Of a DNA stretch of 42,603 bases, positions 1 through 878 are shown piece after piece. Position 1 is the stretch's first letter; each line of letters begins with the position of its first letter. The notes under the pieces were generated by a model. It was not told where the DNA came from and did no database searches. It was given only the letters and a program-made list of their open reading frames with translations. The stretch is from NCBI GenBank assembly GCA_945863035.1, contig CAMAZH010000021.1:1-42603 (forward strand), read 5' to 3'. The translations under genes and the position numbers were made by a program. The stretch is from Chitinophaga pinensis (GTDB lineage: Bacteria; Bacteroidota; Bacteroidia; Bacteroidales; GCA-2748055).

Positions 1-144
1 TTCTATTCGTCAGACCGGGATTTTGCCTACGGCTTCCTTCAGATTCCATCTCACGATGGACACCCTTGCCTTTGGCTAACGCTTCCTACTGTCAAGGCGC
101 GTTCGGGACTTTCACCCTATAGTCATCGCCCATGCCGGGCGCAC
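1..144 (-). mobile_element. Group IIC intron, 5' end (domain I), truncated by window edge
   Basis: Read on the minus strand, the first bases inward from 144 are GTGCGCCCGGCATGGGCGAT, the GUGYG 5' splice-site start of group II introns. The rest of the 144 bases follows, block by block, the domain I core I recall from the Oceanobacillus iheyensis group IIC intron of known structure: a GGGTGAAAGTCCCGAAC block, a CAAGGGTGTCC block, GATGGAATCTGAAGGAAGC, and a GGTCTGA(C/G)GAA block. The intron lies 7 nt behind the stem of the HU-gene terminator, and insertion behind terminator hairpins is the known habit of class C introns. It continues past base 1, so its reverse transcriptase/maturase, catalytic domain V and 3' end cannot be seen, and neither can whether it is intact. 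The match is from memory, not from a covariance-model search. Confidence 0.9.
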
Positions 145-181
145 AAAAAAAGGCTGTCTCAGTTTTTGAGACAGCCTTTTT
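145..181 (-). terminator. Bidirectional rho-independent terminator of the HU gene; intron target
   Basis: A perfect 10-bp stem (152-161 with 167-176) has a five-base loop and is flanked by seven A (145-151) and five T (177-181), so it can terminate on either strand. On the minus strand it follows the HU stop codon by about 20 bases, and its seven-U tail runs directly into the first G of the group II intron at 144. Confidence 0.9.
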
Positions 182-199
182 AAAGCAATAAGAATATTT

Positions 200-472
200 T
201 TATTGAACTGTTTTTGCCAATTCGCTACCCGCTTTGAATTTCACAACTTTCTTAGCTTTAATAGTGATAGGTTTTCCAGTTTGTGGATTTCTACCAGTTC
301 TGGAGTTTCTTGCTGAAACTGAGAAAGAACCAAATCCAACCAAAGCTACGCGATCGCCTTTTTTAAGCGCTTTTGAAGTGGTTTTTACAAATGCATCGAG
401 AGCTCTTTTTGCATCAGCTTTAGTTAATTTAGCTTCAGCAGCAATTGCATCAATTAATTGTGCTTTGTTCAT
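200..472 (-). CDS. hup: HU-family DNA-binding protein
   Basis: A 90-residue histone-like protein, the standard length for HU. It starts [11 protein letters not shown], has the two N-terminal helices, the VGFGSFSV turn around residues 45-52, and the beta-arm [15 protein letters not shown] (about 55-69), whose proline intercalates into DNA. HU acts as a dimer that bends and compacts DNA non-specifically in the nucleoid. The gene is monocistronic: it has its own consensus promoter (521-551) and a strong terminator (145-181). The group IIC intron inserted behind that terminator leaves the reading frame and the terminator stem untouched. Confidence 0.97.
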
Positions 473-791: not shown

Positions 792-878
792 GGAGGAATG
801 GCAGAGCGGTCGAATGCGGCGGTCTTGAAAACCGTTGTACCTTCGCGGGTACCAGGGGTTCGAATCCCTTTTCCTCCG
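792..878 (+). tRNA. tRNA-Ser (anticodon UGA)
   Basis: The acceptor stem GGAGGAA (792-798) pairs with TTCCTCC (871-877), with discriminator G at 878. The D arm starts GGCAGAGCGGTCGAA, the anticodon loop is CTTGAAA with anticodon TGA, and the T arm is AGGGGTTCGAATCCCTT. Between them lies a long variable arm (about 836-853), which marks a class II tRNA. The 3' CCA is not encoded and must be added enzymatically. Confidence 0.97.

Follow-up and report, generated by a model that had tools for sequence, protein, structure and literature searches.

Sequence evidence for a group IIC intron at the terminator hairpin of an HU gene in an uncultured Bacteroidales genome

Background

Class C (group IIC) introns settle immediately behind Rho-independent terminators (PMC8919778; PMC4424553; PMC7161350). 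The element described here shares with the introns of the B.h.I1 and GsI-IIC type, as far as these are portrayed in later accounts (Robart et al. 2007 via PMC4424553, PMC8919778 and PMC7161350), the GUGYG 5' end and a D1-D4-3 domain I, a D5/D6 region with a ...CUACUCGAU end, and insertion in the U tail a few bases past the terminator stem with T as the first base of the 3' exon. The reverse transcriptases (RT) of its relatives are, like those in the same accounts, without an endonuclease domain, and they are closest to the GsI-IIC RT. Measured against what these accounts report, we see no difference in kind: the element is a Bacteroidales sequence lineage, found here at the terminators of HU and tRNA-Cys genes.

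The group IIC-attC introns (for example S.ma.I2, which inserts at TTGT/T in attC) belong to the same ribozyme class and also recognise a hairpin. The intron of this study departs from their rule, with a terminator U tail (TTTTTTT/T) as its site and no attC.

Results and discussion

The window analysed is the whole of contig C21 (42,603 nucleotides), which comes from a draft genome of 241 contigs and 92 % completeness. Near its left end the minus strand carries a gene of 90 aa for an HU-family DNA-binding protein (200..472, minus strand; ORF, PF00216 E=1e-34) followed by its intrinsic terminator (145..181, minus strand). Read on the minus strand, the terminator consists of AAAAA (181-177), GGCTGTCTCA (176-167), AAAAC (166-162), TGAGACAGCC (161-152) and TTTTTTT (151-145), so that a perfect 10-bp stem (176-167 with 161-152) encloses the loop AAAAC and is followed by a tail of seven U (151-145). 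The first-pass annotation had described just this arrangement, an HU gene, a perfect hairpin with a seven-U tail and an intron base next to it, and the minus-strand sequence and the Pfam match bear it out. The sequence itself, RNAfold and 94 % conservation in a congener (G019) all point to a terminator, which would provide the intron with both its target hairpin and a U-rich IBS1. The 45 nt before the intron fold at -22.6 kcal/mol, below all 3240 background windows. A simple terminator scan did not list the HU hairpin, probably because the stem is able to extend into the U tail. Further along the window, a tRNA gene, apparently tRNA-Ser (792-878, plus strand; RF00005, 58 bits), has a strong terminator behind it (886-917) that is without an intron in the source genome.

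From position 144 the minus strand opens with GTGCGCCCGGCATGGGCGAT, oriented like the HU gene; the base right after the seven-U tail corresponds to the intron G1. The opening GUGCG fits the GUGYG start of group IIC introns. The Rfam model RF02001 (group-II-D1D4-3) matches window 60-1 on the minus strand, scoring 55.6 bits where the gathering score is 32, and the match is cut off only by the end of the contig, whose first base falls inside the intron. A covariance-model match to the proposed domain I had been suggested as a check. When the 144 nt are aligned with 12 relatives, the domain I helices covary, with double changes that keep the pairing in 14 of 29 consensus pairs. Matches to the 144 nt are present in 11 of the 28 genomes of the family, the window's own genome counted, and the relatives in other family genomes are 75-98 % identical over the matched part. 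By these family matches, the covarying helices, the RF02001 score and the second copy described below, we identify window 144-1 on the minus strand as the start of a group IIC (bacterial class C) intron, consisting of the GUGCG 5' splice site and the first part of domain I. Its exon parts are visible as UUUU in the 5' exon and U in the 3' exon, while the contig breaks off before EBS1 is reached; EBS1 loops sought by eye in the relatives gave nothing clear.

An ordinary non-coding 3' region or an sRNA after HU could resemble an intron by chance, and the position after a terminator would suit it, with nothing further in its favor. The Rfam score lies 23 bits over the cut-off, the helices covary, and chance likeness is already refuted by an identical copy at another locus together with the absence of the intron from the HU locus of the congener. 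We give it practically no credence.

The identical copy is found on contig C64 of the same genome. This contig opens with all 144 nt at 100 % identity plus five A, and its intron copy sits behind the terminator of tRNA-Cys(gca). The first base of C21 is the same intron position as that of C64, and exactly 149 nt are common to both contigs. A third contig, C137, terminates in exactly 148 nt of intron comprising the C-terminus of the RT, domain V/VI (RF00029, 40.8 bits with a GA cut-off of 40) and the 3' end ...CTACTCGAT, after which follows a gene for a SpoU-type methyltransferase. The RT C-terminus, AGYVFLKDYYESVRVVY before the stop, amounts to the last 17 residues, the only part of the RT of the HU copy to be assembled, and is similar to the C-terminal AGYVFLSDYYCKVSS of a relative in G162. 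Evidently the assembly broke at this repeat, of which there is more than one copy, and contig C21 therefore starts within it; we infer that the 149- and 148-nt overlaps are the mark of a collapsed repeat. The two identical 5' ends suggest that the intron has been mobile recently.

The first-pass annotation had called for a class C RT, a domain V and a 3' end to the left, with domain V or the RT expected within about 2-3 kb. The window starts at the first base of its contig, so this distance has no literal meaning here, and the missing part lies on C137: domain V/VI, the 3' end and the C-terminus of the RT are present there, and the RT body of the HU copy was not found. Missing from the assembly is the interior of that copy, with domains II-IV, the remainder of domain I and the greater part of the RT, and the search of the source genome bin turned up a single 3' end, with no second one for the tRNA-Cys copy.

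To place C137, we compared the locus with G019, the single other genome of the genus in the comparison. There the HU gene and its terminator are 94 % identical and without an intron (contig C37), the empty site reading TGAGACAGC-T9-GCC after the gene, and the C137-type SpoU methyltransferase lies directly downstream of HU, at about 0.5 kb on the same strand. As the HU terminator and the methyltransferase stand together in G019 with no intron between them, C21 and C137 are evidently the two sides of one insertion, on the strength of synteny with one congener, the 149/148-nt overlaps and a short junction match, there being no read or contig that spans the join. The joined exons of C21 and C137 read GAGACAGCC-T8-GCCACTCCT, those of G019 GAGACAGC-T9-GCCTTCTTCCT, and only a few bases match beyond the T run. 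By this reconstruction the insertion point lies within the U tail and the first base of the 3' exon is T. The comparison with an intron-free relative, which the first-pass annotation had proposed, is thereby provided by the HU locus of G019 with the flanking gene of C137 nearby.

It is conceivable that C137 is the 3' side of another copy, given that at least two copies exist and the bin yielded a single 3' end. The position of the methyltransferase in G019 speaks against this, as does the rebuilt junction, where the T tail followed by TGCC matches the empty site. The tRNA-Cys gene of G019 is also without an intron, and the region downstream of it is a different one. We therefore regard an origin of C137 from another copy as very unlikely.

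Alternatively, what follows the HU terminator could be no intact element but a fossil, a IIC intron fragment of 144 nt that has lost its 3' part. Several genomes of the family have only 5'-end pieces behind terminators (36, 67, 76 nt and longer), continued by unrelated sequence, and the RT body of the HU copy is not in the assembly. Against a fossil stand the syntenic partner C137, which carries a 3' end with D5/D6 and the RT C-terminus, the 100 % identity of the two 5' copies, and the contig breaks at both ends, which fit a recent multi-copy repeat; we consider the fossil improbable. Almost certainly, then, a mobile group IIC intron has entered this locus immediately after the HU terminator, in the orientation of the gene.

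The anatomy of this intron was taken from L104, G131, G282, G361 and G162. In HyVt-375 (L104) the same 5' end is followed by a group II core and then an RT ORF. G131 and G361 hold complete relatives, each about 1.9 kb long, with a terminator, the 5' end, the RT, D5 and the CTACTCGAT end. The RT has RVT_1 and a GIIM maturase domain in the closest complete relatives, and no endonuclease domain. In a comparison with PDB the RT of the G162 relative, whose insertion is also behind a hairpin, has the GsI-IIC RT as its best match (E=3e-113), compared to 2e-45 for LtrA (IIA).

To examine the target rule more widely, we gathered 27 intron copies and relatives from the family, the named genomes and the order, with 3240 windows from the same loci as background. 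A hairpin of -12 kcal/mol or below precedes the intron in 25 of the 27. The median folding energy of the upstream 45 nt is -20.6 kcal/mol compared to -5.9 in the background (Mann-Whitney p=1e-18), where copies within one genome share descent and are not fully independent, though their flanks differ. A strict context (MFE <= -12 and at least 6 T among the final 10 nt) was found for 22 of the 27 copies and for 0.09 % of background windows, in agreement with the class C target rule invoked for the HU site. The weaker hairpins belong to a diverged intron on contig C226 (-10.4) and to one copy in G003 (-10.0). In G025 one copy follows a hairpin that lacks a clear U tail, as would be expected if the hairpin itself is recognised. 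G025 has at least five copies (contigs C6, C20, C10, C23, C30, C61 and C65), all at contig ends and with the 5' end GTTTG rather than GTGYG.

Remnants limited to the 5' end lie behind terminators in many family genomes (L041, 36 nt; L036, 67 nt; L031, 76 nt; L045-L048; L053), and when complete copies were sought in the family, most internal matches proved to be 3'-truncated fragments. Loss of the 3' part runs against expectation, since it is the 5' end that should be missing when target-primed copying stays incomplete; the remnant search used a 5'-end query, and the excess of 5'-only pieces may be a bias of that search. A copy behind tRNA-Cys(gca) occurs in two genera of the family, in L047 (G027, contig C126) and in the source genome (L013, on C64), with unlike terminator sequences. 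Either the locus was used repeatedly or the two genera share an old insertion.

In the source genome a complete RT frame was found only in the intron on C226. This too belongs to the group II introns; its RT frame is open (RVT_1 and GIIM), and it matches RF02001 and RF01998. It differs in being 76 % identical over the common 124-127 nt, and its upstream hairpin is weaker and without a U tail. We rejected C226 as the missing body of the HU copy, as it is a different intron, and likewise the RT locus on C194, which is degenerate and of another lineage.

A second IIC-like lineage is present in the same order, with the 5' end GTGYGCCCTGCATGAGCAG and insertions at ...TGT/T sites (L123, L126, L128, L129, L130, L131 and L133, and L012 on contig C194 of G000, a degenerate copy). 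It follows a common block such as CACTGAACCCC..ATTTTATA. These sites resemble the TTGT/T rule of the IIC-attC introns and suggest attC-type cassettes in these Bacteroidota.

Following the literature on IIC introns (PMC4424553, PMC7161350, PMC8919778 and PMC7923331), the complex of intron RNA and RT would recognise the terminator DNA folded as a hairpin, in place of an IBS2. EBS1 would form a short pairing of 3-4 bp with the U tail, which acts as IBS1; the T that opens the 3' exon would serve EBS3 as IBS3, and the intron would then reverse-splice into DNA. Because the RT is without an endonuclease, copying would presumably use a strand of the replication fork as primer. Behind the terminator the intron may seldom be transcribed and may leave the HU gene unharmed; that it instead alters HU 3'-end formation or read-through, as a regulatory effect and not as a neutral passenger, is hardly to be expected.

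Conclusions

The first-pass annotation holds, both in what it observed and in how it read it. The intron is an ordinary further member of a known element class at a typical site and leaves the knowledge of the mechanism unchanged. Its neighbor had been singled out as a highly expressed gene, which is not in itself unusual for elements behind terminators, and tRNA terminators also serve as sites. The empty site of the congener and the roughly 25 relatives, mostly located behind terminators, make the intron a clean additional example of the class C target rule among uncultured Bacteroidales. Class C introns break metagenome assemblies, and contig ends behind terminators are therefore a place to search for more of them.
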